Program-made: the position numbers and the translations under genes | IMG/VR virus record: IMGVR_UViG_3300046504_000035 | Location: 1 to 24,866 of that record | Direction: 5' to 3' (one strand) | Source of the DNA: a virus | DNA: 24,866 nucleotides | Shown here: positions 6,892 through 22,732 of the stretch, in pieces | Layout: every line of letters starts with the position of its first letter | Position numbering within the stretch: the stretch's first letter is position 1 | Notes under the pieces: model-generated | The model's database searches: none | Told to the model about the DNA's origin: nothing | The model's input: only the letters and a program-made list of their open reading frames with translations

Positions 6892-7158
6892 TCAGGTTCC
6901 CTGCTTCATGTAGGTCATGGTCACGATGATAACTTGCCACTCGCCGCCGCCCTTCTGCTGGGCGCGGGGGGCATTCCCTACGAACGGGCCGGCAAGATTG
7001 CCGGAGCCTATCGCCTTAGCCGTCTCGCCCGTCCGCAAGGGGCCGGTCGCCCCGCGGGCGGGGAGGGTATCGTTCTGCCCGCAGTTGTAGACGCGGGTTG
7101 TTCGGATGCCCTCGACAACCTCCTCGACCTTCTCAAGTTCTGTCCGTTCTTGGAGCAT
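6892..7158 (-). CDS. Hypothetical 88-aa phage protein
   Basis: The start is an ATG at 7158, inside the end of the upstream 55-aa gene (26-base overlap), and the stop lies one base before the start of the 577-aa structural gene. The first 20 residues are charged (LQERTELEKVEEVVEGI), the middle is Gly/Thr-rich, and the end is a beta-like hydrophobic stretch (WQVIIVTMTYMKQGT). There is no recognised domain. Tight packing in the late operon suggests a small tail or virion-completion factor. Confidence 0.65.
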   Translation of the reverse strand: MLQERTELEKVEEVVEGIRTTRVYNCGQNDTLPARGATGPLRTGETAKAIGSGNLAGPFVGNAPRAQQKGGGEWQVIIVTMTYMKQGT

Positions 7159-7300
7159 CGGCTGCCTTGACCTCGATTTTATGGCTGGGTCGCACGCCAG
7201 CCGCCCACATCAGATCCATTAGATACTGTTGCGCCTCATGCGTGCCGCACAGCGGCGACGTGCCGAGGTTGTGCGGCCGTGGTTTTTCCGGTGTATCCAT
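7133..7300 (-). CDS. Short LMDDLW-motif protein (55 aa)
   Basis: This 56-codon frame begins with an ATG at 7300, directly after the stop of the connector-like gene (TGAATG), and ends inside the start of the 88-aa gene. It contains AQQYLMDLMWAAGVRPS at about residues 23-39. This closely matches AQGLMDDLWNAGIRPT in the 76-aa gene at 17692-17922 and AQRLMDDLWDCGVRPT in the 125-aa gene at 21697-22074. That homology and the seamless spacing make it a real gene despite its size. The family is common in phages with no assigned function as far as I know; this copy is little more than the core motif. Confidence 0.7.
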   Translation of the reverse strand: MDTPEKPRPHNLGTSPLCGTHEAQQYLMDLMWAAGVRPSHKIEVKAADAPRTDRT

Positions 7301-8422
7301 TCACGGTACATCGCTCATGGCAATGCAGGCGTCCGCATCGCCGTGAAGGCTGTAATCCCGCTCGATGGAACCGATCATCAGTTCCTTGTACCGGGCCTCC
7401 ATCGGCCCGTTGACCTTGCCCGTCTTCAACTCCGCTTCGGCAAGCCCGGCGTACTCGATGGTGAGCGCGTCTTCGGGCATCCCGAGCGCATAGCAGGTTG
7501 AGGCGTCCGTCAGTGGTTGTGGCTCGATGCGGTAGCGGAGCGTAACGACCATATCGCTTGTCGGGGGCGGCTCGACCAGCAGGTTCCACCTCTGGCCGGT
7601 GCTGGGCGTGCCGCGGACCTCGATGGACCAGAATCGGCTGTGGCCTGGGCGACTGCCTCGCCGCCTTCGCTCCACGTCTATGCGTGTAGCGGTCGTCCGC
7701 TCCAGGTTGGTTCGGGAGTAGGTGCAGGCGTGGACGAAGACGGGCGTACCAACCATACCGCTGTAGTCGTCGGGCAGGGCGAAAGAACCGTCGCACGTCA
7801 CAGAGAACAGGCCGGACTCTGTGTGCGCGTCGCCCGTGAGCGTAACGACTGTCGCGCTGGTGTATCCGGCCACGACGTATGCGTTGCCGGTGGTCACGAA
7901 GGTCATCGTCCGGCCCACCATGGACGGGTAGAAGCAAGCGGTTGTTGCGGTGGCCGTGGAGAGGCCCGTCAGGGCGGCGTAGGTGATCGAACCGCTGATG
8001 GTGCAGAGGATGGTGAAGTCGCCGGTTTCCGCGCTAGCGTTGCCGGCGACTGTGATGCTTGTCGGACTGACGTAGGCCGCGATGGTGTAGGTGTTGGTGG
8101 TCGTGGTGAACTTGACGACTTGGCCGACCATTGCGGCGTTGAACGTGGCGGAGGCAACTGTCAGCGTCGAGTAGGTCACGCCATCGTAGGTGATAGCCGC
8201 CGAAATCGTGCCACTTGGCGAGCCGAACAGGACAAAGGATGTTTCCGGCCGGAGCCAGGAGAAGTCATGGGAACTGGCCGTTGGGTCGGCCGGGTTCGCG
8301 CCGCGCCGAAAGCGGTCGTAGCCGGAATTGAGGTAGGCAAGGGCGTTGCCGGTCGTGGTGTTGTTGGTGTACGCCTCAATGCTGTTGCACATATCGCCGG
8401 CTGATTTTGCAAGGTTTGCCAT
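7301..8422 (-). CDS. Putative head-tail connector/adaptor protein with inserted beta repeats
   Basis: This 373-aa protein starts at an ATG at 8422, two bases after the upstream stop, with AAGG about 7 bases upstream. The N-terminal 60 residues (AYLNSGYDRFRRG, DFSWLRPE) and the last 150 (LPDDYSGM, RWNLLVEPPP, RYRIEP, then a helical EAELKTG and IERD end) resemble phage connector or tail-completion proteins. Between them lie two tandem beta units of about 60 residues, each with an (A/S)MVG(Q/R) start, a TNTYTIA or GNAYVVA strand, an S(P/A)T core and an ETGDF or ESGLF end. Its place between coat-associated genes and tail genes fits a connector; the assignment is by pattern and position. Confidence 0.6.
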   Translation of the reverse strand: MANLAKSAGDMCNSIEAYTNNTTTGNALAYLNSGYDRFRRGANPADPTASSHDFSWLRPETSFVLFGSPSGTISAAITYDGVTYSTLTVASATFNAAMVGQVVKFTTTTNTYTIAAYVSPTSITVAGNASAETGDFTILCTISGSITYAALTGLSTATATTACFYPSMVGRTMTFVTTGNAYVVAGYTSATVVTLTGDAHTESGLFSVTCDGSFALPDDYSGMVGTPVFVHACTYSRTNLERTTATRIDVERRRRGSRPGHSRFWSIEVRGTPSTGQRWNLLVEPPPTSDMVVTLRYRIEPQPLTDASTCYALGMPEDALTIEYAGLAEAELKTGKVNGPMEARYKELMIGSIERDYSLHGDADACIAMSDVP

Positions 8423-8423
8423 G

Positions 8424-8780
8424 TCACACCTTCGCAGGCTTGATGTTGATCGGCACGGGCCGGATCGTCGGCGTCACCGGCTGGAAGTTCGGCTTTGCCG
8501 TAATCGCGTCGACCTGGGCCTGTGCTACGTCGACCGTCACCTGAAGAGCGACGACCTTCGCCTGGTCGCTGCCCGGCATGGCGATGTTGTTCGCCGGGTC
8601 GTTGCCGAAGGCCGTCAGTTCCTCCAGCATGCCAGTGTAGAGCGCGCCGGTCGTGGTAATGCCGCGGTTCGGGTCAGGGTTGAACAGCGTTCCCAGGCCT
8701 GTGTTCGGGTCCACGAGCAGCACGTAGTCCGGGCCGCAGTAGCCACTTCGTCCGTTTGCGTCTGGTGTTATTATGTTCAT
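8424..8780 (-). CDS. Hypothetical 118-aa structural-region protein
   Basis: I choose the ATG at 8780 (MNIITPDANG). It overlaps the upstream stop as ATGA, and the frame further upstream is the shadow of the preceding gene. The protein begins with a phage-like YCGPDYVLLVDPNTGLGTLF stretch, then has an acidic middle and a VALQVTVDVAQAQVDAI helix, and ends in a Pro/Lys-rich tail (PTIRPVPINIKPAKV). No domain was recognised. Coupling to both neighbours suggests a small virion or assembly factor acting with the connector-like protein. Confidence 0.65.
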   Translation of the reverse strand: MNIITPDANGRSGYCGPDYVLLVDPNTGLGTLFNPDPNRGITTTGALYTGMLEELTAFGNDPANNIAMPGSDQAKVVALQVTVDVAQAQVDAITAKPNFQPVTPTIRPVPINIKPAKV

Positions 8781-9637
8781 GTTAGTGGATACACCCTGTT
8801 TGCGGTTGTTGCGCCTGCGAAGATCGTTTCCCACGACGCCATGCCCTGTCCGGCGGTCCATGTCGGGGCGCCGATACTCCAGCTCGCCGCCTGGCACGGG
8901 TCGTCGTCGTTCGGTGACACAGCCGCTCTTCCCGTACTAATTATGGTAATGCCAGTGCCGCCCAGGCTCGTTGCGATCACCCAGTTGCCGGCTCCGTCGT
9001 TGAACAGGTACGCCGTTAGGCCTGCGTTGTGCCAAGTGCAGTACCCGTTGTAGGTGCCGTTGGTCCGCGTGAACGTGTCGCCGGCGTAGCCGATGCTCGA
9101 ATGGCTCGGCTGTGCGTTCGTGCCGCCGCTGATGTCCACCAGCGTACTACCAGCTCCCACGGCCGCAATGGCCGCCAGAATCGCATCAACGCCGCCGGTA
9201 CCAGCTTGCGGTAGAGCGTTGCCCACCAGGCTGATTTGAGTTGTGGCGCTGCTCAACGCGGACGGCAACTGAACACTCGTTAGGTACGGATGATTCCACA
9301 GATAGATGTAGCCGCAATTCGGCTCTTGTGCGCTACTCGCGTTAAACGTGCGCAGTCGCGACGTGGCCGTGCCAAGCCACATCCAGATGACACCGGGATT
9401 GAGCGCCGCGTCGATGACCACATCGGTGTCTTGCTGCGTGCCTCCCGAAGCAACACCCCAAATGTTAGAGGTGTTCGCGCCCAGGCCAAGAGTCACAGTT
9501 ACACGGTCGCCGGTGTAGGTGCCGTTGGATACGCCGTGGCGGATGTCGCCGGCGTTCGTCACGCCGCCGCCGGAACTGGCCGGAGCGGCCAGCAGGCCCG
9601 GCTTGTTGATCGGACCCGGCATGTTGGTGATGCCCAT
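8777..9637 (-). CDS. Putative virion protein with LRR-like/GGVDAILAA motif
   Basis: The start is taken as the ATG at 9637 (MGITNMPGP), two bases after the stop of the 278-aa gene; the frame upstream of it is antisense or shadow sequence. The 286-aa product is rich in Gly, Thr, Ser and Asn. Residues about 90-190 contain a leucine-rich-like run (NHPYLTSVQLPSALSSATTQ), then GGVDAILAAIAAVG and VDISGGTNAQPS, a signature I know from phage minor structural proteins. The C-terminal third has Trp-rich beta sequence (WSIGAPTWTAGQGMASWE). A surface or tail-associated role is likely but inferred. Confidence 0.65.
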   Translation of the reverse strand: MGITNMPGPINKPGLLAAPASSGGGVTNAGDIRHGVSNGTYTGDRVTVTLGLGANTSNIWGVASGGTQQDTDVVIDAALNPGVIWMWLGTATSRLRTFNASSAQEPNCGYIYLWNHPYLTSVQLPSALSSATTQISLVGNALPQAGTGGVDAILAAIAAVGAGSTLVDISGGTNAQPSHSSIGYAGDTFTRTNGTYNGYCTWHNAGLTAYLFNDGAGNWVIATSLGGTGITIISTGRAAVSPNDDDPCQAASWSIGAPTWTAGQGMASWETIFAGATTANRVYPLT

Positions 9638-9639
9638 GG

Positions 9640-10476
9640 TTACGCTCCCGCGATGACTGGTGTAACGATGGCCCGCTCGGTGTTGGTGCCGATCAGGTAC
9701 ACCGTGTTGACGTTGGCGACCGGGTAGTAGATGCCGGCCGTGTTCGTGGCCTCGCAAATCAGCCGCTTCTGGTTGCCGGCCCCGGAGGTGCCGATACCGA
9801 TGGCGTGGGCGTTGGCCGAGCCGCCGTCGATGTCCGCGTTGGGCGCACGCACCACGACTCCCAGGCACGCCAGACTGCCAGCCTGCACCTGCACGGCGGA
9901 GCCGGTCATCGCCACGGCAATCGGGGCCGCCGTTACCGAGTCGGCCGACGTGGCGATGGTCGTGAGCGAAGTCTGGGCGGTCGTCTGGGCGGCAGATGTC
10001 GCAAGGCCCGTCGTGTTCACGGTTGCCGTTACGGCCGCCGCGCTCTCCACGCTGACGTGCTGGTTGCTATCGACCATGGCGTAGCGCGCGTACCATGTCC
10101 CGCCGCCGCTGGATGAGAGGGTAATCAGGGCGTGCGAGTTCAGGGGCAACTTGACGTGCAACGGTGCCTTGACGTACATCGTCGTGCCGGCCGCAAGCCC
10201 GAACAGGGAACTGTCGGCCAGCGCGGTCTGATCGGTCGTGACGACGGGCAGTTCAATCTGGTAAAGCTGAGTCGCTACGGTGGGTATGCCGGCCGAAAAG
10301 ACCGTCAACGTCACCGTGGCAATCTGGCCCTGCGTCTCGTTGCCGAGCAGTAGAGTCAGGCCGGACGCGCTGGTCGCCACTACGCCGGCCCCGGCGGCCA
10401 CGATGGTCGCTATGGTCGTCTCGACCTGCAAGGCATTACCAGTCCCGCCGCCGTTGTAGAGCAGTGTTCGTAACAT
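9640..10476 (-). CDS. Putative structural protein, Ala/Thr/Val-rich
   Basis: This 278-aa protein starts at an ATG at 10476 with AGGAG about 10 bases upstream. The sequence is almost entirely small and beta-branched residues with few charges, typical of virion surface or decoration proteins. Residues about 145-185 form an Ala/Thr/Ser helix-like linker (TSAAQTTAQTSLTTIATSAD). The C-terminal 90 residues look like a compact beta-domain (VVVRAPNADIDGG, NTVYLIGTNTERAIV). It lies between the paralogous 85/86-aa genes and the GGVDAILAA protein. No family was recognised. Confidence 0.65.
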   Translation of the reverse strand: MLRTLLYNGGGTGNALQVETTIATIVAAGAGVVATSASGLTLLLGNETQGQIATVTLTVFSAGIPTVATQLYQIELPVVTTDQTALADSSLFGLAAGTTMYVKAPLHVKLPLNSHALITLSSSGGGTWYARYAMVDSNQHVSVESAAAVTATVNTTGLATSAAQTTAQTSLTTIATSADSVTAAPIAVAMTGSAVQVQAGSLACLGVVVRAPNADIDGGSANAHAIGIGTSGAGNQKRLICEATNTAGIYYPVANVNTVYLIGTNTERAIVTPVIAGA

Positions 10477-10517
10477 GATGACGAGTCTCCTGCTGCGTCA
10501 CATGACGCGGCGAGTTG

Positions 10518-10778
10518 TTAGTAGCCGATGACCATGATCTTGCAGCGCACGGCCGCGGCCGTGTACAGCGTGATCGTAGCCAGGCTGGCCGACCAGTAGA
10601 ACGCAGGCGTGTTGCCTGTGCCGTTGCTGCTGCTGATGCCGACGAAGAGCACCGTCCTGAACGGGCACTCGAAGGTGTCCGTCGCGCCACTGGGGGTCGT
10701 TGCGTCCCGAAGGAACACGTTGGCCCCGTTCATGTGGAAGTATTGATCGTTTACGCCGCTTGTTGCTGTGATAGCCAT
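10518..10778 (-). CDS. Small structural-region protein, copy B of a tandem pair
   Basis: This 86-aa protein is a clear paralogue of its upstream neighbour at 10824-11081. Both share SGV near the N-terminus, YFHMNGxN at about residue 13, FYWSAS near residue 60, TLYT, and a KI(M/L)V(I/M)GY C-terminus. The size and beta-rich composition suggest a small capsid decoration, tail-tip or fibre-cap protein. No family was recognised. A hairpin with a UUCG tetraloop lies just upstream. Confidence 0.7.
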   Translation of the reverse strand: MAITATSGVNDQYFHMNGANVFLRDATTPSGATDTFECPFRTVLFVGISSSNGTGNTPAFYWSASLATITLYTAAAVRCKIMVIGY

Positions 10779-10806
10779 TGGTTCAGCCCTTGTGTAAAGG
10801 TCCGTG

Positions 10807-10820
10807 CCCGCCGAAGCGGG
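10807..10820 (-). promoter_or_regulatory. Stable C(UUCG)G hairpin between the paralogous small genes
   Basis: Transcribed leftward, these 14 bases read CCCGC-TTCG-GCGGG, a perfect 5-bp stem closed on the extra-stable UUCG tetraloop. No U-tract follows, so a terminator is unlikely. An RNA-stability or processing element setting the level of the downstream 86-aa gene is more plausible. Confidence 0.5.
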
Positions 10821-10823
10821 TTC

Positions 10824-11081
10824 CTAGTAGCCCATGACGAGAATCTTGCACTTGATAGCCGACGACGTGTAGAGCGTCACGGTCCCGCCGCTGGCCGACC
10901 AGTAGAAGTTCGGCGTGACGGTGGTTGTGATGCTGCTGATGAGCACGTTGACGATGGTGTTGAACAGCGTCTTGATCGTCTGCGTGCTGGCGACGGTGGT
11001 GCAATCGTACAGGGCGAGATTGAGGCCATTCATGTGGAAGTAACGCACTTCCACGCCGGAAGTCTGTGTGATGTCTGCCAT
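10824..11081 (-). CDS. Small structural-region protein, copy A of a tandem pair
   Basis: This 85-aa protein starts at an ATG at 11081 and is the upstream member of the duplicated pair. It shares YFHMNG, FYWSASGG, TLYTSSA and KILVMGY with the 86-aa copy. The leader sequences just upstream of both start codons are also similar, so the duplication included the leader. The protein is beta-rich with few charges. Its location next to the capsid-associated pair suggests a virion component. Confidence 0.7.
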   Translation of the reverse strand: MADITQTSGVEVRYFHMNGLNLALYDCTTVASTQTIKTLFNTIVNVLISSITTTVTPNFYWSASGGTVTLYTSSAIKCKILVMGY

Positions 11082-11109
11082 TGGTTCGTTCCTTGTTGTA
11101 AGGCCCGTG

Positions 11110-11141
11110 CCCGGCGAGCGACCGCGAGGCCGCCCGCCGGG
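11110..11141. promoter_or_regulatory. Hairpin in the leader of the 85-aa gene
   Basis: Perfect 7-bp arms CCCGGCG (11110-11116) and CGCCGGG (11135-11141) enclose an 18-base GC-rich loop. It occupies the 75-base gap between the capsid-associated gene and the 85-aa gene, equivalent in position to the UUCG hairpin at 10807-10820. No U-tract follows on either strand, so it is not an obvious intrinsic terminator. Confidence 0.4.
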
Positions 11142-11156
11142 TTCCGTTGTGAGTCT

Positions 11157-11747
11157 CTACGCATCCGCGGAAGACGCGATGCCGATGGTGCCGAGCACGG
11201 TGGCTGTGGGTACCAGGGTGATCGTTGTGCCCGCAATGAGGGTGCCAACGCTCATGCCGCCAACGGCAACCAGGCCGTTCGTGACGAGCGTGCCAGCGGC
11301 GGTGCTGGTCACGAACGCCGCCACGTAATCGCAGGGGCACACCCCGCCGCACCAGAACCAGCCGTAGTAGGTGGCGGTGACGGCGGAGCAGGCGATGGCG
11401 GCCGGGCCATAGCCCAGGCCGACTGCGCCGCTTGCGATGGTCGTCACGGTGTAGGGCGCTCCGGCCGCGGCCGGCGTGACCAGACTCTTGGCGACGACGA
11501 CCGAGTTGGAGGACGCCTGGAGGTAGATGAAGGTCGAGAAGCCGGCGACGCCGATCGCGCCTTCGTGGTAGATCTGAATCTTCGTGCCAGGCTTGTAGAT
11601 CGCCGTGGCAACGTTGTGACCGTAGTTCGCCATGTCGCCGGCATTGGTCGTGTCGGCGAAGCCAGGCGGAAGATTCATGTTCACCGGCACGCCGGGGAAC
11701 TTGTCCAACAGAATGACGTTGGACGATGTGATTGTACTGTCAGCCAT
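11157..11747 (-). CDS. Capsid-associated (decoration-like) protein, copy B of a tandem pair
   Basis: I choose the ATG at 11747 (MADSTITSSN) because AGGAG lies 8 bases upstream and the start aligns with its paralogue; the longer frame upstream is shadow. The 196-aa product is homologous to the 214-aa protein just upstream. Shared features are an ILLDxFPG(V/A)P start, GVAGFSTFIYL near residue 75, LVTxAxxGAPY, and YxGWFWCGGVCPxDYVAAF near residue 130, followed by a Gly/Thr/Val-rich beta end. Position directly after the coat gene suggests decoration or stabilisation of the capsid. The conserved CGGVC pair could form a disulphide or bind metal (inference). Confidence 0.7.
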   Translation of the reverse strand: MADSTITSSNVILLDKFPGVPVNMNLPPGFADTTNAGDMANYGHNVATAIYKPGTKIQIYHEGAIGVAGFSTFIYLQASSNSVVVAKSLVTPAAAGAPYTVTTIASGAVGLGYGPAAIACSAVTATYYGWFWCGGVCPCDYVAAFVTSTAAGTLVTNGLVAVGGMSVGTLIAGTTITLVPTATVLGTIGIASSADA

Positions 11748-11778
11748 GTTCGTTTCTCCTGCTTGTTCTTGTTGTGGG

Positions 11779-12423
11779 TTAGGTGTTCGCAACGTCCGCG
11801 TGACTGGCGACCGCGATGCGGCCAGCCGGGCCGGTCGTTGGCGTGGACAGGCCGATGATCGTGCCGGACCCGGCCGCCAGCGTGCCAGCCGTAGCATCGC
11901 CCACGACCAAGGTGCCATCCGTCGCCAGAGTGATTGCCGTTCCGGACGGCACGAACGCCGCTACGAAGTCAGTCGGGCAGACGCCGCCGCACCAGAACCA
12001 GCCGCCGTAGCCGTTGGTCATGGCCGATACGGCGACGGCGCAAGGGCCGAAGCCGTTGCCGACGGCGGTATTGAGGTTGGTGACGACATACGGAGCGCCG
12101 GTGGAAGCCGTTGTGACAAGGCTGCCAGCGGCTATCAGGCTGGCGCTCTGCGTGCCCACCTTCAAGTAGATGAAGGTGGAAAAGCCGGCGACGCCTACCT
12201 GGCTGCCCGCAGACGAGAGGCCAGTGTTGTAGACCTGGGCCTTCGTACCGAGCGGGTTAAGGTTCGTGCCGGCCGCCACGGGGGCGGCCATCGACACATT
12301 ATGGCCGCAGTTCGTCGCGTCGTCGCCGAGCGAGAATCCTGCCGCCAAGTTCTTGGTCCCGGGCGCGCCCGGAAAGAGGTCCAGCAGGATGATGTTGTTG
12401 GAGGATACTGTGCTATCAGCCAT
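11779..12423 (-). CDS. Capsid-associated (decoration-like) protein, copy A of a tandem pair
   Basis: This 214-aa protein starts at an ATG at 12423 with the same AGGAGAAAC leader as its paralogue. It follows the major capsid gene by 44 bases. It shares the ILLDLFPGAP start, GVAGFSTFIYL and GGWFWCGGVCPTDFVAAF with the 196-aa copy and has extra residues near position 60 (AQVYNTGLSSAGSQ). It is Ala/Gly/Thr/Val-rich and nearly neutral, like head decoration proteins. Two diverged copies could occupy different capsid sites. The function is inferred from position and composition. Confidence 0.7.
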   Translation of the reverse strand: MADSTVSSNNIILLDLFPGAPGTKNLAAGFSLGDDATNCGHNVSMAAPVAAGTNLNPLGTKAQVYNTGLSSAGSQVGVAGFSTFIYLKVGTQSASLIAAGSLVTTASTGAPYVVTNLNTAVGNGFGPCAVAVSAMTNGYGGWFWCGGVCPTDFVAAFVPSGTAITLATDGTLVVGDATAGTLAAGSGTIIGLSTPTTGPAGRIAVASHADVANT

Positions 12424-12467
12424 CGTTGTTTCTCCTGGGTTGTTTGTTCACCTGGATCAGCCGCCGC

Positions 12468-13487
12468 TTAGCTCATGACCTGGTAGCAGCTTGCGTTGGG
12501 CTGGGTGCAGATGATGTTGCCCTGGAGCATCACGCGGCCCAGGAGCTTGTCGGTGCCGTTGGCGTACTTGCCCTGCCATTCGAGGTCGGTGACGTATCCG
12601 AGCCGCCGCTTGGGGCTGAGCATCAGGTGCCAGTCGGGCAGGTGCAGCATAAACGTGTTGGTCGAGAACCCGCCGAGGTCCAGGTACGGATCGGCGATGA
12701 TCTCCACCCCGTCGATGGTCATGCTGGTGAAGCCGAACTCCGCGTGCGGGCCGGCCTTGTAGATGCGCTGCGATTCGACCTGCGACTGCAACGTCCGGTA
12801 GTTGGTGTTGCCGCAGAGGAACAGCAGGTTGTCGGGCGAGTCGGTCGTGGCGTACCGCTGCACGCGGTCAATGATCCGCCGGAAGTTGGCGATGGAGCAG
12901 GCGACCGCAGTCGTCTGTGTGGCCGTCGCCCAGGCGGCCGTCGCCGTGATGTCGGCACTCTGCCACCACGAGTTCGTCGTGGAGTTGGCGCGGGTCTTGC
13001 CGCCGTAGCTCACGTCGAACGCGAGGGCGTCCTTGAGGCCCTGGAACTGCGCGTTGGCGCTTGAGGGCTGGTCGCGGTTGCTGTCGCCGGCGCGGTAGAG
13101 CAGCTTTGACATCGCCAGGCGCATGCCGCGCTGGCCGTTGATGACGAGCCGCTGCCGGATGTCGAAGATCTGGCCGTCGCCGCCGCCATCGCGGTTCTCC
13201 ATGTCTTCCATGCTCTTGAGTTCGAGCGGAAGCTGGGCGTTCTTGCGGTACCACTGGACGGTCGTGTCCGTGACCTTCTCGCCGCCCTGGAGGGTCTCGT
13301 TGTCCGTGTACTCCTGGAACAGCGAGTCCATTTCGGCGTACTGGACCGTGGCCTTGTACGCAGTGCCCTTCTTGAACTGCCGCTGACGCCGCTCTTCCAT
13401 GATGCGGAAGAACGGGAGGCGCAGATACACGTTGTCGTAAACGGTTCTGTCCCAGAATTCCCTTGTAGTTGCGGTTAAGTTAGCCAT
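12468..13487 (-). CDS. Major capsid protein (HK97-fold type)
   Basis: This 339-aa protein is in the canonical slot after portal and scaffold. Features expected of HK97-fold coats are present: a charged N-arm (TTREFWDRTVYDNVYLRLPF), a long beta-hairpin E-loop-like region (about residues 40-90, QRQFKKGTAYKATVQY to TVQWYRKNAQLPLEL), a spine-helix region, and a late TSMTIDGVEIIADPYL / NTFMLHLPDW / KRRLGYV core typical of the A and P domains. The size is normal for phage coats. A 117-base leader separates it from the scaffold gene, unlike the tightly packed neighbours, which may allow its own translation or transcription control. I did not place it in a named subfamily. Confidence 0.85.
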   Translation of the reverse strand: MANLTATTREFWDRTVYDNVYLRLPFFRIMEERRQRQFKKGTAYKATVQYAEMDSLFQEYTDNETLQGGEKVTDTTVQWYRKNAQLPLELKSMEDMENRDGGGDGQIFDIRQRLVINGQRGMRLAMSKLLYRAGDSNRDQPSSANAQFQGLKDALAFDVSYGGKTRANSTTNSWWQSADITATAAWATATQTTAVACSIANFRRIIDRVQRYATTDSPDNLLFLCGNTNYRTLQSQVESQRIYKAGPHAEFGFTSMTIDGVEIIADPYLDLGGFSTNTFMLHLPDWHLMLSPKRRLGYVTDLEWQGKYANGTDKLLGRVMLQGNIICTQPNASCYQVMS

Positions 13488-13604
13488 TGCTCTTCAGCCT
13501 TTCTTGCTTGTACCCGCCCGCCGCACAAATGGCGTTTGCCGTCGTCGGGCGGTATGTTGTCTGTGTTGGCTTACTCGACCGCGCCCAAATGCGGAGTCGA
13601 GGGC
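13488..13604. other. 117-base leader of the major capsid gene
   Basis: This is the longest gap in the left part of the operon. It has complementary 7-bp arms CCGCCCG (13514-13520) and CGGGCGG (13546-13552) that could fold in the leader RNA. No convincing promoter or terminator U-tract was seen. Higher capsid expression by a local promoter or a stability hairpin is possible but not shown. Confidence 0.35.
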
Positions 13605-14480: not shown

Positions 14481-14481
14481 G

Positions 14482-14583: not shown

Positions 14584-14623
14584 ACTGTCCTGTCGGTTGC
14601 CGAGGCGTCAGGGACGCCATCTA

Positions 14624-14842: not shown

Positions 14843-14846
14843 GGTC

Positions 14847-15095: not shown

Positions 15096-15100
15096 GTTCG

Positions 15101-17164
15101 TTACCTCGCCATTTCGGCCGGGACCTGCTGGTCGGCCGGTTGCTGTTGGGCTGCCGGCGGTTGCTGGCCGGCGGCGGTATCGTTTCCGGGCTGGGCGGCG
15201 GCAGGCGCGGGTGCGGGCGGGCCACCGGCCGCTTTTGCCTTGGCCTGCGCCTCGGCCGCCGCCTGCTGCTGCTGGAGGAACTGCGTGAACTGCTGGAACA
15301 TCGGCAGTTGCTTCATCAACGTCCGGCCCTTGTCGCTCATGCGGAAGGCATCGAAGATGTCCGGCAGGAGCAGCATTCCGCCGCCGGGGGCCACAGCGTT
15401 CACCGCGCCGAACAGGGCCATCATGTCGGCCTTGTCCCTGTCAATGTCGTTGGGAAGATCGGTGGTCGTCATCAGCCGGATGTCGAACCGAACGTCCTTC
15501 ATGCCGCTGGTGATCTGTGCCACGGTGTCTTCGTCGCCGTCGGCCGCCACGCGAATCCACCGATCCGGCGGGTACATCCGCTGGGCGATTTCCGCGATGT
15601 GCTCGAACACGTCGACAGCGAAGATGTCGCACATGCGATTGGACAGGGCCTGCCGCAAGCGGCTGTTAGTCTGCAAATCCTGGGCTTCCGTCGCCGTAGT
15701 GCCCTTCCGCATGGCATGGCCCAGGCCGATGTCCTGCATACCCGTCTGGTCGCGAAGGTCCTTGCCCATCTGCTGGTAGAGCATCAGCGCACCCTGCGAA
15801 ATCTCCGGCGGCCTCTCGCGGCGGACCTTATCCATCGCGCCCTTCTTGACGACAAGAATATGGCCGGCCTTGGCCTTCAACTTACGAGCGATTGCTTCGC
15901 CCGTCTTGACACCAGCCAGTGCGCCCTCCTCAACAACCGCCTGCGGGTCGCCGAAGTATTTGACGTGGTTGCACAGGTGGACCATGCTGATGTTCAGCCA
16001 GTCCTGCAAACCACGGGCTTGCAGCGTGTTGTTGAGGCCCTGCCACACATGCGGCAGAACGTGATTGACGCCGACGGTGTAGGGCCACTTGCGATACGGC
16101 CACCGCTGCTCGGCTGGCTTATCGTTGAGGATCACGCCGTTGCATCGCAGGATCAGGCGGCCGAATGGGTAGGCCGGCGTGGCATGACGCTCGGTTGTCG
16201 GCTCCATCAGCCTATCGCCTTCCCACGGCTGGCCGGTCTTGGTGTTCACATACGTCTCGCTCGGCGCGTGGAAGGCCAGGTGCCCGGCGTCCATCATCTC
16301 CTGCTTGGTAGGCTCGTGCAGCCTGTTCTCCACATTCTCGGAGAAGTCTCGCAGAAGGAACTGCTCTACCGTCACGCGGCGGCGGTGGATTGCCTGCCCC
16401 TGTGTCGTGCTGCCGTCAGGCCGCGGGTTAATCAGGCTGACCAGTTGCCCTATCCAATACTGCTCAGGGGTTCGCTCTTGGTCCTGCTGGCCGTCCGGTG
16501 CCGGGCTGTCGGGGCCGTACCCAACGCCATTAGCGCTCAGGTCATCCACGACGCCCTTCGGAGCGTTCTCAAGTTCGGGGGCGGCGTGGGGCCAGCGGGC
16601 CTTCGCCTCTTCCAGGTCTATCTGCCGGCGGCAGAAGACGTACTTAGCGTCGGTCAGCGTCTCTGCCTCCGGGTCCGCGCCGAAGTATTCCGGCCGAATG
16701 AGCGATAGTTCGATCTCGCCATCCCACCGCTCTTCCCGGTCGTTCCATATGCTCTTCGGATTCCAGTAGGGATAAGAAATCCAATGGCCGTATATCTTGC
16801 CGTCAAGCTGCGCCCGCAAGAGGTGGTCGGCGAACTTGAGTTGCGTTTCGTAGAGCCAGCGGAGGTGCGATGTCCAGACCTTCGCGGCGGTGGAGTCCTT
16901 GCCCTGGCATGGCCGGGCCGTGATGATCTGGTTTCGCTGGCTGGCGAGGGCCAGTTCCTGCATCATGGACGGGAAGATGTAGTTCGCCCAGACCGGCTCG
17001 AAACCATCCTTCAGCGGCATGTCGGCAAGCTGGTTGTCGTAGATGTAGTTGTACGCCTGCCGCCAAATATCCCGCCACTGCTTCGTAACGATAAGGGCAT
17101 CGTCACGCCGCTCATTGAGCTGGCTGTTGAGGTCGTCGAGTTGTGCCTTTACGGTTTTCGGCAT
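15101..17164 (-). CDS. Portal protein
   Basis: This 687-aa protein forms the dodecameric portal through which DNA is packaged. Its start overlaps the stop of the membrane-protein gene (TAATG). Portal features include an N-terminal helical region with WRQAYNYIYDNQ, the WANYIFPSMMQELALASQ helix, GKIYGHWISYPYWNPKS and RPEYFGADPEAETLTDAKYV segments, and a long late helix with QDWLNISMVHLCNHVKYFG and AIARKLKAKAGHILVVKKG. The last 90 residues are an Ala/Gln/Pro-rich barrel-like or disordered tail. The length is close to that of P22-type portals rather than the shorter portals of many siphoviruses. Position between terminase and scaffold confirms it. Confidence 0.85.
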   Translation of the reverse strand: MPKTVKAQLDDLNSQLNERRDDALIVTKQWRDIWRQAYNYIYDNQLADMPLKDGFEPVWANYIFPSMMQELALASQRNQIITARPCQGKDSTAAKVWTSHLRWLYETQLKFADHLLRAQLDGKIYGHWISYPYWNPKSIWNDREERWDGEIELSLIRPEYFGADPEAETLTDAKYVFCRRQIDLEEAKARWPHAAPELENAPKGVVDDLSANGVGYGPDSPAPDGQQDQERTPEQYWIGQLVSLINPRPDGSTTQGQAIHRRRVTVEQFLLRDFSENVENRLHEPTKQEMMDAGHLAFHAPSETYVNTKTGQPWEGDRLMEPTTERHATPAYPFGRLILRCNGVILNDKPAEQRWPYRKWPYTVGVNHVLPHVWQGLNNTLQARGLQDWLNISMVHLCNHVKYFGDPQAVVEEGALAGVKTGEAIARKLKAKAGHILVVKKGAMDKVRRERPPEISQGALMLYQQMGKDLRDQTGMQDIGLGHAMRKGTTATEAQDLQTNSRLRQALSNRMCDIFAVDVFEHIAEIAQRMYPPDRWIRVAADGDEDTVAQITSGMKDVRFDIRLMTTTDLPNDIDRDKADMMALFGAVNAVAPGGGMLLLPDIFDAFRMSDKGRTLMKQLPMFQQFTQFLQQQQAAAEAQAKAKAAGGPPAPAPAAAQPGNDTAAGQQPPAAQQQPADQQVPAEMAR

Positions 17165-17358
17165 TACCCTGTCTCGTCCTCTGTGTCGGTGTCGTAGTGG
17201 GGCGGATCGGCTAGAAGCGGCTCGTCGCGGCCTTCAAGCCGGCCTACGCGCATGGCGACCTTCACGCCGATCAGGAAGGCTGCGATGACGCCGCAAGCGG
17301 CAACAATCCCCTCCACGATGACGGCGACCAGCAACAGAATTTGGGTGGTTTCGCCCAT
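17164..17358 (-). CDS. Single-span membrane protein (holin- or spanin-like candidate)
   Basis: I prefer the ATG at 17358 (MGETTQ), giving 64 aa; a longer start at 17385 is possible. Residues about 6-30 form one uninterrupted hydrophobic segment (ILLLVAVIVEGIVAACGVIAA) followed by Lys/Arg (GVKVAMRVGRLEGR) and an acidic tail (DTDTEDETG). One span with a charged C-terminus is compatible with a small holin or another lysis accessory, but no lysin gene is in the window to support this. It is coupled to portal by TAATG. Confidence 0.6.
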   Translation of the reverse strand: MGETTQILLLVAVIVEGIVAACGVIAAFLIGVKVAMRVGRLEGRDEPLLADPPHYDTDTEDETG

Positions 17359-17478
17359 GCCTGTCCGCCAAGATAAACCAGGCAAGTTGAGGGCTGTGCA
17401 TAAATTGCGGGCGGTGGGCTATTTGTGCTGTACTTTGGCTGGACGATATGGGATATAGGGCGGTTGAAAGGGTTTGCT

Positions 17479-17676
17479 ATGAAAACAAAACCACTGCCGA
17501 GGGGTCCGTTCGCGTCACTCAGGGAAGCGGCCGTTGCCCTGGGCTGTTCAGTAGAGACGGTTCGGCGCAGGTTCGACGAGGGGAAGTTGAAGGGGATTCA
17601 CGACACGCACAGGCGGGTGTACTGGACGAGCGTTGACGCCTACGTCAAGACGCACAGCAACTCGCGGAAGCCGTAA
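17479..17676 (+). CDS. Small helix-turn-helix DNA-binding protein (MerR/excisionase-like)
   Basis: This 65-aa protein starts at an ATG at 17479 with GAAAGG about 8 bases upstream. It contains FASLREAAVALGCSVETVRRR followed by FDEGKLKGIHDTHRRVYWTSVDAYVKTH: a winged-helix layout with an HTH and a basic wing, as in excisionase and MerR-type domains. It is the only rightward gene inside the leftward late operon and ends 16 bases before the converging end of the 76-aa gene. It may regulate the late genes or recombination; the target is unknown. Confidence 0.75.
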   Translation: MKTKPLPRGPFASLREAAVALGCSVETVRRRFDEGKLKGIHDTHRRVYWTSVDAYVKTHSNSRKP

Positions 17677-17691
17677 CCGTGGATGTCACGT

Positions 17692-17922
17692 CTATGTCGG
17701 CCTGATGCCTGCGTTCCAGAGATCATCCATCAATCCCTGCGCTACCTTCGCGTCGATCTTGGCTGTAGGGGCTGGTATTTCCGCATCGACGACGCGATCA
17801 ACCCAGTTGAATGACTCCGCACGAACACGTCGGCCATCATCGGCCACGGCAAATGCGACAAGGGCCAGCCCAAGCTTGGGCCATTCCGAAATCTGCAATG
17901 CCACAAGATTCTCGCTCGTCAT
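17692..17922 (-). CDS. LMDDLW-motif protein (76 aa)
   Basis: The start is an ATG at 17922 overlapping the terminase large-subunit stop (ATGA). The protein ends with AKVAQGLMDDLWNAGIRPT, the core motif shared with the 55-aa gene at 7133-7300 and the 125-aa gene at 21697-22074. The N-terminal 50 residues (SEWPKLGLALVAFAVADDGRRVRAESFNWVDR) look like a small beta-rich domain. This copy lacks the HLQDMR-type C-terminal extension of the 125-aa member. Its function is unknown. Confidence 0.75.
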   Translation of the reverse strand: MTSENLVALQISEWPKLGLALVAFAVADDGRRVRAESFNWVDRVVDAEIPAPTAKIDAKVAQGLMDDLWNAGIRPT

Positions 17923-19826
17923 GTCGTTTCATCCTCTTCGAGAGCCTCGTCCATGTTGTCAATCCCGCCGGCCTGCATGTAGCCCTTGGCGGCCGTTTCA
18001 ATCATTACGAATCCCTCCTCTTCCGGCGTCGTCCTTGTCCGCGGGCAGTCCTTGTGGACCTGCAACGCGATCATCGCGGCGAACAGTTCATCGTCGTGCT
18101 GGCCGCGGGCGTGGTCGCTCCGGCCCGACATCGTGATGATGAATGTCTCCTCCTCGTTCACCAGCACGGCCGAGTGCGGCGTTATCCGACCTTCGTACCC
18201 GCCGTCCGGCCCGGCCCGGCACGCCTCCTTCCACTCGATGACGATCCGCTCGCGGTTGCTGCTCGTCGTGCGGAAGCCGTACTCGGCCAGCTCCGCACCG
18301 CCCTCGACGTTCACCATATCGAGCATCCGCCGGTACAGCCGCTCGTAACCAGCCTCCACCAGCACCAGCACCGTCGCCTTGCCGGTGTTGTTCACTTCCG
18401 GCGTCACCCATGCCCTGTTGTACCACACGGCGCAGAGATGAAGCTGCCGGCCGAACTCCGTCTCACTAATCTCCGGGCCTTCCCACCGGGCGACCTGATG
18501 CAGCGTCACCCTGTCCAGCACGAACCCGCGAGTCCGATCATGCTCGCTGTGATCGTCGTCAGGGTCGCTCAGCTTCCCTTCCGCCACGTCGCCGCCGATG
18601 GCGTAGTCGTGGTAGGGGGCCGGCGGCTGGTATATCTCCCAGTATGAGGTAATGTAATCTCCCTCGTGCGCCGATACGGTGCCGTCAGGCTCCCACTGGA
18701 ACCGAAATTTAGCACCCGTCAGCACGCAGCGACGATGCCTGTCGGTAATGCCAGCGGGTATCCGGCGTCGACCAGAACGTGAAAACGCCTCTGCTGGCGA
18801 GGACGGAAATTCCACGGCGAAGAGTTCTTCGTCGCCACCTTCGTTATCCTCGATGGTTCGCCTGCGCCAGTAGAGTTGCTGGAGCGTCGCCCCGATGGAC
18901 TGCAAGGCCAGTTCCTTCTCCGACATCAGGCCCCATGCGTAGCCAGGCGGCGGCTCGGCGGCGTAGCTGGCGAAGGAAAGCCACGAAAAGAACAGCGGCA
19001 TGTAGCCGGCAAGGCTCGTGGTGTTCTGCTTGCGGTATTCCACGGCCGAGTCCCAGCGCGATTTGAACTCATCCCAGCCCGATGCCGTCGATTCGATGAC
19101 GATGACGTTCGGGCCGGTACGCGGCACGGCGTTGGAAACCGAGTTGAGCGTCTTCTTGGCGTTCCGCCACGAAGGAACCTCTGAGCAGTGTACGAATGTC
19201 AGCGTGTCGCCACGCTTCAGGCTTGTCCTGCCAGCCGTCTGGACCTGGAAGACGCTCCGATGCGGCCGGGACCACCGCATCTCCTTCTTGCCGGGCTTGC
19301 CCTGGTCCAGTTGCCGGGCGGTGGGATTCTCGCTCTGGTACATCGAGGTCATAGAGAATAGCGTCTGCGAGTCCTCGTCCGTCTGCGCGCACACCAACGC
19401 CCTTGTGTTCGGGAACAAGTGGGCCAGCATGTACCCGAACGCCTCCACCACCGTCGAGCAGCCCATCTTGCGGCTTTTTAGGATGATGATGCGGGCCGGA
19501 AGGCCGGCGAGTAGTTGCGAGCACAGCCAGAACAGGACGCGGTACTGAACAGGGTTGACACCGCCGGCAAACCGTGGATCGTGAAGAACGTCCAACGCGA
19601 TCAACGAGCCAGAGTCGGAACGGATGCACAGGTTCGACGCCATCCACCGGCACGTCGCCATCGTCAGGCGGTCACGGTCGTCCTGCGTGAGCGGCCGGCC
19701 CGGTTCGTCAGCTGGGGGGAAGAACTCGACAAGTTGCACCACGCGGCCTTCAAGCCCAGCCAGCGGGTCATCAAGGTTCCTGACACACCACAGCGCGTCG
19801 CGGGGTTGTTCGCCAGGCTTGGTCAT
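17919..19826 (-). CDS. terL: Terminase large subunit (packaging ATPase/nuclease)
   Basis: I choose the ATG at 19826 (MTKPGEQ), which overlaps the preceding stop as ATGA; a GTG ten codons upstream is possible. The 635-aa protein drives DNA into the prohead and cuts the concatemer. The ATPase domain has a Walker A-like KSRKMGCST (117-125), Walker B-like TLTFVHCSE (208-216, E216 catalytic) and a VIVIESTASG coupling motif (241-250). The RNase H-like nuclease domain shows AIGGDVAEG (D413), TPEVNNTG (E477) and GQHDDE (D578/D579), a full set of acidic residues. Small subunit upstream and portal downstream complete the packaging module. Confidence 0.9.
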   Translation of the reverse strand: MTKPGEQPRDALWCVRNLDDPLAGLEGRVVQLVEFFPPADEPGRPLTQDDRDRLTMATCRWMASNLCIRSDSGSLIALDVLHDPRFAGGVNPVQYRVLFWLCSQLLAGLPARIIILKSRKMGCSTVVEAFGYMLAHLFPNTRALVCAQTDEDSQTLFSMTSMYQSENPTARQLDQGKPGKKEMRWSRPHRSVFQVQTAGRTSLKRGDTLTFVHCSEVPSWRNAKKTLNSVSNAVPRTGPNVIVIESTASGWDEFKSRWDSAVEYRKQNTTSLAGYMPLFFSWLSFASYAAEPPPGYAWGLMSEKELALQSIGATLQQLYWRRRTIEDNEGGDEELFAVEFPSSPAEAFSRSGRRRIPAGITDRHRRCVLTGAKFRFQWEPDGTVSAHEGDYITSYWEIYQPPAPYHDYAIGGDVAEGKLSDPDDDHSEHDRTRGFVLDRVTLHQVARWEGPEISETEFGRQLHLCAVWYNRAWVTPEVNNTGKATVLVLVEAGYERLYRRMLDMVNVEGGAELAEYGFRTTSSNRERIVIEWKEACRAGPDGGYEGRITPHSAVLVNEEETFIITMSGRSDHARGQHDDELFAAMIALQVHKDCPRTRTTPEEEGFVMIETAAKGYMQAGGIDNMDEALEEDETT

Positions 19827-20059
19827 CGGCAGTTTGGGCCTCCGACTGGTTTCCACTCGCGTTCGTGCTTACGCAGGAATTCATCTACCCTACAGCGTTG
19901 CCTCCACGATTCGATTGCGTGCATGATCGCTCTGTCGGCCCGGATAACATCGCCCTCCATCGCAACCATCTTGGCACATGCTTCCGGACTCTCCATAATG
20001 GCAGCCTCAAGCGCCTCACATGCGCGGATTACGTTATGAATTGCGTCGATCACGTTCAC
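19823..20059 (-). CDS. Hypothetical helical 78-aa protein between terminase subunits
   Basis: I choose the GTG at 20059, which overlaps the stop of the 26-aa microprotein as GTGA; in-frame GTGs up to 20077 are alternatives. The product is helical with Ala, Glu and Met (IHNVIRACEALEAAIMES, GDVIRADRAIMHAIESWRQRCRVDEFL) and ends in a basic WKPVGGPNCR tail. No family was recognised. Coupling to both terminase genes suggests a role in packaging or gene expression, but nothing in the sequence proves it. Confidence 0.6.
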   Translation of the reverse strand: MNVIDAIHNVIRACEALEAAIMESPEACAKMVAMEGDVIRADRAIMHAIESWRQRCRVDEFLRKHEREWKPVGGPNCR

Positions 20060-20136
20060 GGCTTTCTCCACCACCACCAGCCAATGAATATTCCAACGGC
20101 GACGCCAAGGACATAAAATAAGGTGTTGTCGATCAT
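20056..20136 (-). CDS. 26-aa membrane microprotein with a Trp4 motif
   Basis: This 27-codon frame starts with an ATG at 20136 overlapping the terminase small-subunit stop (ATGA), and its own stop overlaps the next GTG (GTGA). It encodes MIDNTLFYVLGVAVGIFIG then WWWWRKP: one hydrophobic span followed by four tryptophans and a basic end. The double overlap is strong evidence that it is translated. The size resembles phage-encoded membrane micropeptides; the function (holin-like, membrane regulator) is unknown. Confidence 0.55.
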   Translation of the reverse strand: MIDNTLFYVLGVAVGIFIGWWWWRKP

Positions 20137-20858
20137 ATCACGCCGCCTTCCCGTTCCTGCGCCGCCGGCATTACCTCCTCCGGCCTTGTCTCCGGATCAG
20201 CCGGCACCACGCACACCGCTTGCGAGAATCCAGCCGTCGGCGTCGGCACCCCAGGAGCAAGATCGGCTGGCGGCGGCGGAACCTCCACCGGCAACCGCCG
20301 CAGCGGCTCCTGCGTCACGTACCGAGAACGCCCGTCAAACGCGTCCGGCCGCGGGGCCGACTGCTCCGCAGCCAGCTTCACTATCGCCTCGTTCGCCTTG
20401 AGCTGATCGTGCAGTTCAAGCTCCACGCTCTGTGTCTCGTCACCGTCCTTGCCAACGTGCCGAGTCTTCTTCATCTTCTTCACCAGCCGTGTGTTCACCC
20501 CGGCCGCCCTGGCCTCCTTCAACGACATCTTCCCGTCCAGCACGTCCTCCAGGTCCGCCAAGTCGCCCGAAGCTATCTGCGCAATCCGTACCAGCGATAG
20601 CATCGGGTCCACGCCGGCCGCCACTATCCGGGCCTTCAACCACGCCCGGACGCCAGAACGAGTGAGGTACCGCTTGCCGGCCTCAGCCGGCGTCAGCCCG
20701 CACTCCTTCGCGGCCACAGCCAGCACGAACCCTGCCTCCAGGTACGCCTGGCAGAACTTCGCCTCCAGCGGATCGTCAATGAACGGGTCCACCGCCTCCA
20801 GCATCGGCAACGACTCCGCACCAGGCGGCTCAAGAGGATAATCAGCGTCCTTCGTCAT
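20133..20858 (-). CDS. terS: Terminase small subunit
   Basis: This 241-aa protein starts at an ATG at 20858 with GGAG about 7 bases upstream. Residues about 25-80 (DPLEAKFCQAYLEAGFVLAVAAKECGLTPAEAGKRYLTRSGVRAWLK) form the HTH-type DNA-recognition region seen in small terminases. Helical oligomerisation segments follow, with ELELHDQLKANEAIVKLAAEQ near residue 150, a typical feature of this family. The last 80 residues are Pro-rich and disordered. It recognises the pac/cos site and recruits the large subunit encoded downstream. Confidence 0.8.
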   Translation of the reverse strand: MTKDADYPLEPPGAESLPMLEAVDPFIDDPLEAKFCQAYLEAGFVLAVAAKECGLTPAEAGKRYLTRSGVRAWLKARIVAAGVDPMLSLVRIAQIASGDLADLEDVLDGKMSLKEARAAGVNTRLVKKMKKTRHVGKDGDETQSVELELHDQLKANEAIVKLAAEQSAPRPDAFDGRSRYVTQEPLRRLPVEVPPPPADLAPGVPTPTAGFSQAVCVVPADPETRPEEVMPAAQEREGGVI

Positions 20859-21107
20859 CTACTCTCCCCTGATCCGATGGAGAAGGGCTTCGGCATCGGC
20901 AAAATGCTTCATGCACTCCTCAGTGTCCTCGCGGCTGTTTGATGGATTGGTGGCCGCGTCGTACCCGTACTCAAGCAGCCACTCGAGCGCGTCGATCAGT
21001 TCCGGCACCGCCGCGACGGCGCGGATGGTCGCCTCGGAATTGCCCCGCGGCCCGACAACAAACCAAGAATCCTGCATCGCTTCACGGAAGGCGTCTTTGG
21101 TTTCCAT
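20859..21107 (-). CDS. Hypothetical 82-aa protein at the head of the late operon
   Basis: The start is the ATG at 21107 or the GTG directly before it; GGAG lies 6-9 bases upstream. The stop abuts the terminase small-subunit start. The protein is helical and acidic (AVAAVPELIDALEWLLEYGYDAATNPSNSREDTEEC, HFADAEALLHRIRG). No family was recognised. As the first gene of the leftward unit it faces the XRE gene across a 91-base divergent region. Confidence 0.65.
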   Translation of the reverse strand: METKDAFREAMQDSWFVVGPRGNSEATIRAVAAVPELIDALEWLLEYGYDAATNPSNSREDTEECMKHFADAEALLHRIRGE

Positions 21108-21155
21108 CACCGCATTCTCCCTGCCACTACCATTAAGTCAACAGATTTCCAAAAT

Positions 21156-21168
21156 ATTGCATTGCAAT
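21156..21168. promoter_or_regulatory. Candidate operator: ATTGCA-T-TGCAAT palindrome
   Basis: A perfect 13-bp odd-centred palindrome overlaps the -35 element of the rightward XRE promoter, in the 91-base gap between divergent genes. Position and size fit an autoregulatory operator for the adjacent XRE protein, although only one copy is seen. A leftward TTGACT element (21136-21141, minus) nearby has no good -10. Confidence 0.4.
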
Positions 21169-21190
21169 TACCCGAACCACCAGCCATACT
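21162..21190 (+). promoter_or_regulatory. Predicted promoter of the XRE regulator
   Basis: TTGCAA at 21162-21167 and CATACT at 21185-21190 are separated by 17 bp. The expected start of transcription (about 7 bases past the -10) falls on or beside the ATG at 21199, and no Shine-Dalgarno sequence precedes that ATG. This predicts a leaderless mRNA, as for lambda cI from PRM. Confidence 0.45.
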
Positions 21191-21198
21191 ACCACACC

Positions 21199-21423
21199 AT
21201 GACCAACAACGAACATCGAAACGCCCACTGCGCCGCACAACTCCGACAGGCCAGATTGGCTAAAGGACTCTCCATCCTGCAACTCGCCCAGGCCGCCAAA
21301 GTCACACCAGGAACCATCTACGCCTACGAACGCGGTATCGGACTCAAGTGGAGCACCGTCTGCATCCTCGCCCAGGCACTCGGACTTACTCTCGTCACCT
21401 ACCAGAAAAACCCAAACCCATGA
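21199..21423 (+). CDS. XRE/Cro-CI family transcriptional regulator
   Basis: I choose the ATG at 21199 (MTNNEHRN) because coding character begins there. The 74-aa protein is a single HTH domain: LRQARLAKGLSILQLAQAAK (helices 1-2), VTPGTIYAYERGIGLKWSTV (recognition helix with the YERG signature) and CILAQALGLTLV. It lacks a dimerisation or peptidase domain, so it resembles Cro or a small repressor more than full CI. It is transcribed divergently from the packaging and structural operon and is the obvious candidate switch regulator. The next gene starts within its stop codon (ATGA). Confidence 0.8.
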   Translation: MTNNEHRNAHCAAQLRQARLAKGLSILQLAQAAKVTPGTIYAYERGIGLKWSTVCILAQALGLTLVTYQKNPNP

Positions 21424-21671
21424 GTACCGACCGGTTTACAACCCACTGGCAAGTAGTCCCCAACCCCATGCGGAACGACGGCGTGTTCATCGTACTTGAT
21501 GTCCCGCCACAGCCATACCCCGGAGTACGCAATATCCACGGCGGGAAAATCATGCAGCTACCCCCGCACGTCGGGTTCAACAGCTCGATGGACCGCGACC
21601 TGGCCGAGTTCATCGTCAAGGCCGTCAACCTCTTCATCGACAAAGAAACCCCCACCACGCCAGTTACATAA
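21420..21671 (+). CDS. Hypothetical 83-aa protein
   Basis: The start is the ATG at 21420, overlapping the XRE stop (ATGA). The protein has a beta-like N-half (WQVVPNPMRNDGVFIVLDVP), a Pro/His-rich loop (GKIMQLPPHVGFNSS) and a C-terminal helix (RDLAEFIVKAVNLFIDKE). No family was recognised. Coupling to the XRE gene suggests co-regulation. Confidence 0.65.
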   Translation: MSTDRFTTHWQVVPNPMRNDGVFIVLDVPPQPYPGVRNIHGGKIMQLPPHVGFNSSMDRDLAEFIVKAVNLFIDKETPTTPVT

Positions 21672-21696
21672 GGCGGCAGGGAGGGAAGGAGAACAC

Positions 21697-22074
21697 ATGG
21701 AAATCAGCATGGGCAAGACCAGCATCCGGGTCGCCAAGGACATCAAGGACATCGCTGGCGACGGCGTCAAACTCTTCATCCTTCGCGGAGACCAAGCGGC
21801 ACGCAGCCTGCGATGGACAAAGATCAAAGCCCCTAACCACGATCCACTCGCCAGCATGGACGGACACGCCGCACAGAGACTCATGGACGACCTCTGGGAC
21901 TGCGGCGTCAGGCCAACCAGCGACGCAGGAACCAGAGCCATGCCCGCCGTCCAGCACCACCTCCAGGACATGCGGGCAATCGTTGCCGCAACCCTGAAAC
22001 TATCACTTCCTGCCATGCCGCCGCCGCCAACGCAAAAAACCTTTGTGCAGATCGGAGCGGCTACGTGGCAATAA
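21697..22074 (+). CDS. LMDDLW-family phage protein, full-length member
   Basis: This 125-aa protein has a strong site (AAGGAG, 5-6 bases before the ATG at 21697). It carries AAQRLMDDLWDCGVRPTSDAG near residues 58-76 and VQHHLQDMRAIVAATL near residues 84-99. This two-block layout, motif then HLxDMRxLV helix, is familiar from phage genomes but has no established role known to me. The N-terminal 50 residues (KTSIRVAKDIKDI, KLFILRGDQAARSLRWTKIK) appear to be a small alpha/beta domain. The 76-aa and 55-aa genes on the other strand look like shortened relatives. Confidence 0.75.
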   Translation: MEISMGKTSIRVAKDIKDIAGDGVKLFILRGDQAARSLRWTKIKAPNHDPLASMDGHAAQRLMDDLWDCGVRPTSDAGTRAMPAVQHHLQDMRAIVAATLKLSLPAMPPPPTQKTFVQIGAATWQ

Positions 22075-22082
22075 GGACCAAA

Positions 22083-22598: not shown

Positions 22599-22694
22599 CG
22601 CGCCGGCGGGCGGGTGCGGGCCGTGTCGATATCATGTCTCGGCAGATAGCCTATAGATCGCCGCGGTTTCGTGCTGGTTTCTGGCTGGCCCGCT

Positions 22695-22714: not shown

Positions 22715-22732
22715 TCCAAAAAGGAACAACCA

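Follow-up and report, generated by a model that had tools for sequence, protein, structure and literature searches.

Why should three dispersed genes of one virus contig encode small proteins that share the segment AQxLMDxLWxxGhRP (h, hydrophobic), and do the three proteins act together? The contig is IMG/VR virus record IMGVR_UViG_3300046504_000035, and the whole of it, hereafter the window, was analysed. An initial annotation had spoken of one small genome; the record is indeed a contig of 24,866 bases, but it may be only a fragment of a larger genome. The three genes are, in plain terms, as follows, with E values and positions that refer to the family profile described below.

21697–22074, plus strand: complete family member of 125 amino acids (aa); E = 2e-21; mean predicted local distance difference test (pLDDT) score of 85.6 in AlphaFold2
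17692–17922, minus strand: C-terminally shortened member of 76 aa; E = 3e-13, profile positions 11–75
7133–7300, minus strand: motif-only copy of 55 aa; E = 6e-7, profile positions 57–77 only

A check of the open reading frames (ORFs) of the window bore out all three at these coordinates, strands, and lengths, and for each gene its own reading frame scores best. The gene map likewise agrees with the earlier placement of the 125-aa gene in a rightward regulatory set and of the 76- and 55-aa genes in a leftward late set. The 125-aa protein comprises an N-terminal strand region, the motif helix AQRLMDDLWDCGVRPT, and a second helix with HLQDMR, and has a proline-rich tail that is its own feature. 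The 76-aa protein comprises the N-terminal region and the motif helix AQGLMDDLWNAGIRPT and then stops, without the second helix, while in the 55-aa protein the corresponding segment, EAQQYLMDLMWAAGVRPS, is flanked by ends unrelated to the family.

Kinship of the three proteins

The kinship of the three proteins, proposed earlier from their motif, is confirmed by an independent profile that contains no sequence of the window. Relatives were collected in two scans of IMG/VR; these produced 171 relatives, of which 80 were kept, and at least 119 matches to the pattern. The fetched loci held 198 member ORFs, which were dereplicated to 144 stretches, and 138 of these outside family members were used to build a hidden Markov model (HMM). 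When the 583 ORFs of the window were searched with this HMM, filters off, the 125-, 76-, and 55-aa proteins took ranks 1–3 with the E values listed above, and the next-ranked ORF had E = 3.9. A second profile that included the 125- and 76-aa proteins was run on the whole record and gave 3e-24, 1e-14, and 9e-7, respectively. At the DNA level, the motif core ATGGAYNNNNTNTGGNNNNNNGGNNTNMGNCC (a degenerate pattern for MDxhWxxGhRP) had three matches in the window, one per ORF, and none in any of 100 dinucleotide shuffles.

The motif helix, with its D, W, G, hydrophobic, R, and P residues in that order, is present in all three proteins. The spacing AQxxLMD given in the initial annotation holds for the 55-aa protein only; in the 125- and 76-aa proteins, as in the family, it is AQxLMD. 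What surrounds the helix differs from copy to copy. Alignment to the family profile begins at positions 14 and 11 for the 125- and 76-aa proteins and at position 57 for the 55-aa protein; the first two have the N-terminal strand region and the third does not, and the loop and second helix with HLxDMR occur in the 125-aa protein and in neither of the short ones. The description of the short copies as motif-only therefore suits the 55-aa protein but not the 76-aa protein, which keeps the strand region together with helix 1. The HLQDMR helix had also been taken for an add-on of the long copy. The strict form of this helix occurs in 181 of 191 motif ORFs, and most of the 10 others show a looser second helix. 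Since it is standard across the family, the helix is an ancestral feature that is missing from the short copies rather than one gained by the long copy. Judged from these alignments, the three genes are members of one family, homologous at the motif; one is complete and the other two are reduced. IMG/VR held no other protein that, by exact pattern, ends straight after GxRP[S/T], and no other case of the MDLMW variant of the 55-aa protein.

The short alignment of the 55-aa protein (only 21 residues) and the lack of any other MDLMW variant could point to convergence on a generic amphipathic helix-turn, with no descent in common with the other two proteins, and this protein also has a weak independent resemblance to the short family phrog_9855 (E = 0.006, one genome). 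We hold such convergence to be quite improbable: the protein reaches E values of 6e-7 to 9e-7 against profiles from unrelated phages, every motif-pattern ORF seen in the fetched loci resembles the family, and the shuffled sequences gave no motif match.

The family is, as far as sequence can tell, real, well conserved, and common in IMG/VR, and it is named by no database searched. Its 138 profile members have a median length of 107 aa and a median net charge of −2. The loci were gathered by motif patterns, and the conservation of the letters in those patterns is thus partly ascertained by the search; among the 48 first-scan members without MD[DE]LW[DR]C, which were found through the GxRP pattern, the D and the W are nonetheless kept in 48 of 48. 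AlphaFold2 models of a canonical member (mean pLDDT 88.8; strands at residues 4–11, 18–26, and 29–32, helices at 55–67 and 79–98) and of the 125-aa protein (strands at 8–14 and 24–30, helices at 56–68 and 77–100) predict a family layout of beta strands, helix 1 (AQxLMDxLWxxG), the hRP turn, a glycine-serine loop, and helix 2 (HLxDMR). In both models the least confident internal block (pLDDT 65 and 69) is the one that contains this conserved interhelical loop, as would be expected of a surface that orders upon binding.

Two members depart from this layout. In one (locus L210, 9692–10177), a cysteine-containing stretch (CCRNCGWF) replaces the N-terminal strand region, which hints that this part may be exchanged as a module. 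In the other (locus L168, 1497–1796), the entire loop is missing and GLRP joins TERHLADMR directly.

Copy number and origin of the short copies

The three proteins had been suggested to be interacting or competing parts of one system, an idea to which comparison with other phages lends no support. Of 50 records of up to 157 kb searched in full, only the window yielded more than one copy, with three; the other 49 phage records yielded one each. No second copy was found at 14 bits or more, with filters off, among the 212 fetched loci; L213 and L215, which had looked like a two-copy contig, were rejected as overlapping ends of one contig. C-terminally short members were found in two other loci, one of 63 aa (L163) that overlaps the beginning of a gene whose match to SU10-portal is sub-threshold, and one of 76 aa (L158) with a terminase gene approximately 3.7 kb downstream. 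No long copy was seen alongside the short form in the 7–8 kb contigs of either. Outside this phage, the survey thus found no case of long and short forms together, which is the outcome that the initial annotation had named as speaking against its idea, and because their co-occurrence is absent elsewhere in the sample, it is not a general system.

An interaction specific to this phage is still conceivable, as there was no close relative to compare it with. Searches by way of terminase, capsid, and portal gave no useful relative: in 50,697 named phages neither capsid nor portal was matched by tblastn, and the terminase matches in named phages were 25–28% identical among the matches listed. On these comparisons the phage is far from any named one.

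The genes that adjoin the two short copies are given below.

17919–19856, minus strand: terminase large subunit of 645 aa, directly upstream of the 76-aa gene; PHROG matches
15101–17164, minus strand: portal protein of 687 aa, giving the order terminase, 76-aa gene, portal; phrog_156, E = 1e-32
17473–17676, plus strand: helix-turn-helix gene, excisionase/HTH_17-like, of about 67 aa; phrog_66, E = 2e-4
7301–8422, minus strand: late gene of 373 aa, immediately upstream of the 55-aa gene; no PHROG match
6892–7158, minus strand: 88-aa gene overlapping the end of the 55-aa gene; no profile match

The terminase matches phrog_2 (8e-9), phrog_38407 (2e-11), and phrog_24361 (5e-7), and the match of the opposite-strand helix-turn-helix gene to HTH_17 (9e-5) is below the cut-off. 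The initial annotation had placed the short genes after terminase and connector-like genes; the 76-aa gene does follow the 645-aa terminase, but the connector is unsupported, the 373-aa gene having no PHROG match. Both short genes have tight, intact operon junctions. The start of the 76-aa gene lies within the terminase stop codon (ATGA overlap), that of the 55-aa gene lies immediately 3′ of the stop of the 373-aa gene (TGAATG junction), and the end of the 55-aa gene overlaps the 88-aa gene by 26 nt.

Such junctions are what one would look for under a dedicated regulation in which the late 55- and 76-aa proteins compete with the early 125-aa protein for a partner common to them or poison its oligomers. 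The same can be said of the D, W, G, R, P core kept in all three proteins, of the division of long and short copies between the rightward regulatory and leftward late sets, and of the recurrence of short forms without the C-terminus late in L163 and possibly in L158. However, every other phage record is limited to a single copy, the 55- and 76-aa proteins have been reduced in different ways and do not represent one type of regulator, and the short copies have the most deviant G+C content at third codon positions (GC3), and we therefore consider this regulation distinctly unlikely.

The GC3 of the two short copies is 0.61–0.62 (0.62 for the 55-aa gene), the lowest of the genes measured (0.72–0.91 for the others), as would fit genes that arrived recently or are under relaxed constraint. 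The extra copies may have arisen by duplication within this phage or by separate acquisition; a tree of 140 rows is poorly resolved and decides for neither. Two adjacent pairs of genes in the late operon are tandem duplicates (10518–10778/10824–11081, minus strand, 55% protein identity; 11157–11918/11779–12423, minus strand, 51%) and probably represent duplicated virion proteins. The presence of these two other pairs means that the phage does duplicate genes. A nonsense or frameshift origin of the 76-aa protein was rejected, there being no remnant of helix 2 downstream in any frame. The helix-turn-helix gene occupies the stretch expected to encode the second helix, and its end lies 16 bases away from the 76-aa stop codon.

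Several of these features would also be expected if the short genes were non-functional duplicate remnants, kept open by chance and by the overlapping operon structure. The two copies are the lowest in GC3, the 76-aa copy ends exactly where the stretch of the opposite-strand gene sets in, the ends of the 55-aa protein do not match the family, and the family is single-copy everywhere else. Yet the frames are open and the own frame is the best one, the start and stop junctions with the neighbours are neat, and short forms exist in L158 and L163. Moreover, both copies retain the whole motif core, although neutral decay would be expected to wear it down. On balance we regard the remnant explanation as somewhat unlikely.

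Gene neighbourhoods and a possible role

Elsewhere in the window, a gene that overlaps the end of the 125-aa gene (22065–22331, plus strand) encodes an MqsA-type antitoxin zinc-finger domain (PF15731, 30.2 bits vs. a cut-off of 30). A serine recombinase of the DNA invertase/integrase type (22634–23350, plus strand; phrog_125, 6e-46; phrog_95, 1e-37) suggests a temperate phage. At 1543–1635, just past the stop of a 776-aa gene, there is a 36-bp tandem repeat (2.6 copies, 96% matches).

In the relatives, recurrent neighbours of family members include HNH endonuclease, DNA methyltransferases, DnaB helicase, exonuclease, ParB-like proteins, and terminase; a cluster resembling single-stranded DNA (ssDNA)-binding proteins, recognised by sequence reading only, also recurs near members. 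A large terminase was detected in 29 records and lies within 5 kb of the member in 11, downstream of it in 10 of these 11, a simple tally that leaves aside wrapping round contig ends. Members abut or overlap terminase genes in L085, L129, L052, and L119. In L129, L176, and L200 the member lies between the terminase and a large following protein, and these large proteins are mutually homologous and are portal by position only. In L201 the member comes after the terminase and in L110 after a head-tail adaptor gene, and L143 is also among the loci in which the member is at or close to a terminase or portal-like gene. The terminase-portal position occupied by the 76-aa gene of the window thus holds complete copies in relatives. 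A conserved helix-turn-helix partner in the terminase-portal gap was considered and rejected: the small genes of L176 and L201 are alike by eye only, with no profile match and no similarity to the helix-turn-helix gene of the window.

A position upstream of terminase is a classic accessory region, and the family could accordingly comprise early host-takeover or anti-defence proteins whose proximity to packaging genes reflects nothing but the usual accessory site. The downstream terminase in 10 of 11 records, the methylase and nuclease neighbours, and the position of the member of Burkholderia phage CSP3 between an ssDNA-binding gene and replication genes would all agree with this. We think it unlikely, given that members are also located within the late operon, with terminase on one side and portal-like or adaptor genes on the other, and that the net charge is near neutral. 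DNA mimicry in particular was rejected, the net charge being only about −2.

Our preferred reading, which we put forward tentatively and as somewhat short of probable, is that the three genes encode, once in full and twice in reduced form, a small binding protein that belongs to DNA-processing and packaging modules. Helix 1 and the hRP turn, taken as the essential contact because they are kept in every form, would form a docking surface for a partner whose class, DNA processing or packaging, is suggested by the gene setting. The loop and helix 2 would add a second contact, for example for oligomerisation. The extra copies would have been gained through duplication or re-acquisition. As the 76-aa copy ends where the helix-turn-helix gene begins, it was probably cut short by a rearrangement at this opposite-strand gene, while the 55-aa copy would be a further reduced or degenerating motif peptide. 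The three copies need not act jointly. A bolder variant, in which one binding element exists in three sizes, whole in the early protein and trimmed to strand plus motif or to the motif by itself in the late ones, and hands a partner in DNA processing or packaging from an early complex to late packaging-linked peptides, the reduced peptides thus serving as a lineage-specific timing switch, seems to us highly improbable.

Several points weigh against the docking model. Foldseek returned no PDB structure with E ≤ 0.001, and its sole matches at that level are two uncharacterised viral models. The predicted template modelling score is 0.57 in both AlphaFold2 models, leaving the arrangement of the parts unsure. 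The neighbourhoods are diverse and do not indicate a single partner, and many members lie far from terminase. Beyond the check on 48 members, the conservation of the motif is largely ascertained by the search patterns. Finally, a grouping of the 76- and 125-aa proteins is neither supported nor rejected (approximately unbiased test, p-AU 0.1).

Relation to known proteins

Pfam, PHROGs v4, and NCBIfam 20.0 gave no significant profile match for the three proteins or for the family, and a sequence search of the PDB gave no match. No member was found in the plasmids searched. Among 300 genomes from the order of Cupriavidus there was one clear match, already known, and one marginal match. The motif LMDDLW is printed in no paper that we found, nor did we find a paper for phage CSP3.

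The likenesses to catalogued families are weak. PF10910 (Phage_gene29) resembles the 125-aa protein around the motif (E = 0.019, residues 40–91), but membership was rejected at 15.6 bits (14.7 in the genome search) vs. a gathering cut-off of 29. As an assignment for the family it was likewise rejected, being seen in only 2 of 67 members, with below-cut-off matches in 7 of 14 unrelated control genomes. Partial, weak matches to phrog_30489 touch helix 2 in 14 of 67 members (best E = 0.0036), and similarly weak ones to phrog_31201 touch the motif in three members; both are possibly distant relatives of the family. The two Foldseek matches, A0A6J5KLQ2 (uncultured Caudovirales phage) and A0A0F7L7S9 (uncultured marine virus) from BFVD, have E values of 1e-5 and 1e-4 and a probability of 1.00; however, their TM-scores are only 0.40–0.50.

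The tempting story of long vs. short forms fails a simple survey of copy number, and the more useful product of the analysis is the recognition of an uncatalogued, well-conserved phage family with one representative in a named phage. Describing this family, which three major libraries miss, would put a name to what is a "hypothetical protein" in at least 140 uncultivated phages. From the reduced copies one can see what survives by itself, and helix 1 with the hRP turn is accordingly the likely functional core. Phage CSP3 (OQ053201.1, Lessievirus), the only one of 50,697 named phage records to carry a member, offers a cultured entry point. Its hypothetical protein WBF05250.1 is a complete member with the strand-helix-GxRP-loop-HLxDMR layout and is 39% identical to the 125-aa protein over residues 31–111, but unlike the window, CSP3 has a single copy, located in its replication region close to genes for ssDNA binding, helicase, and DnaC.

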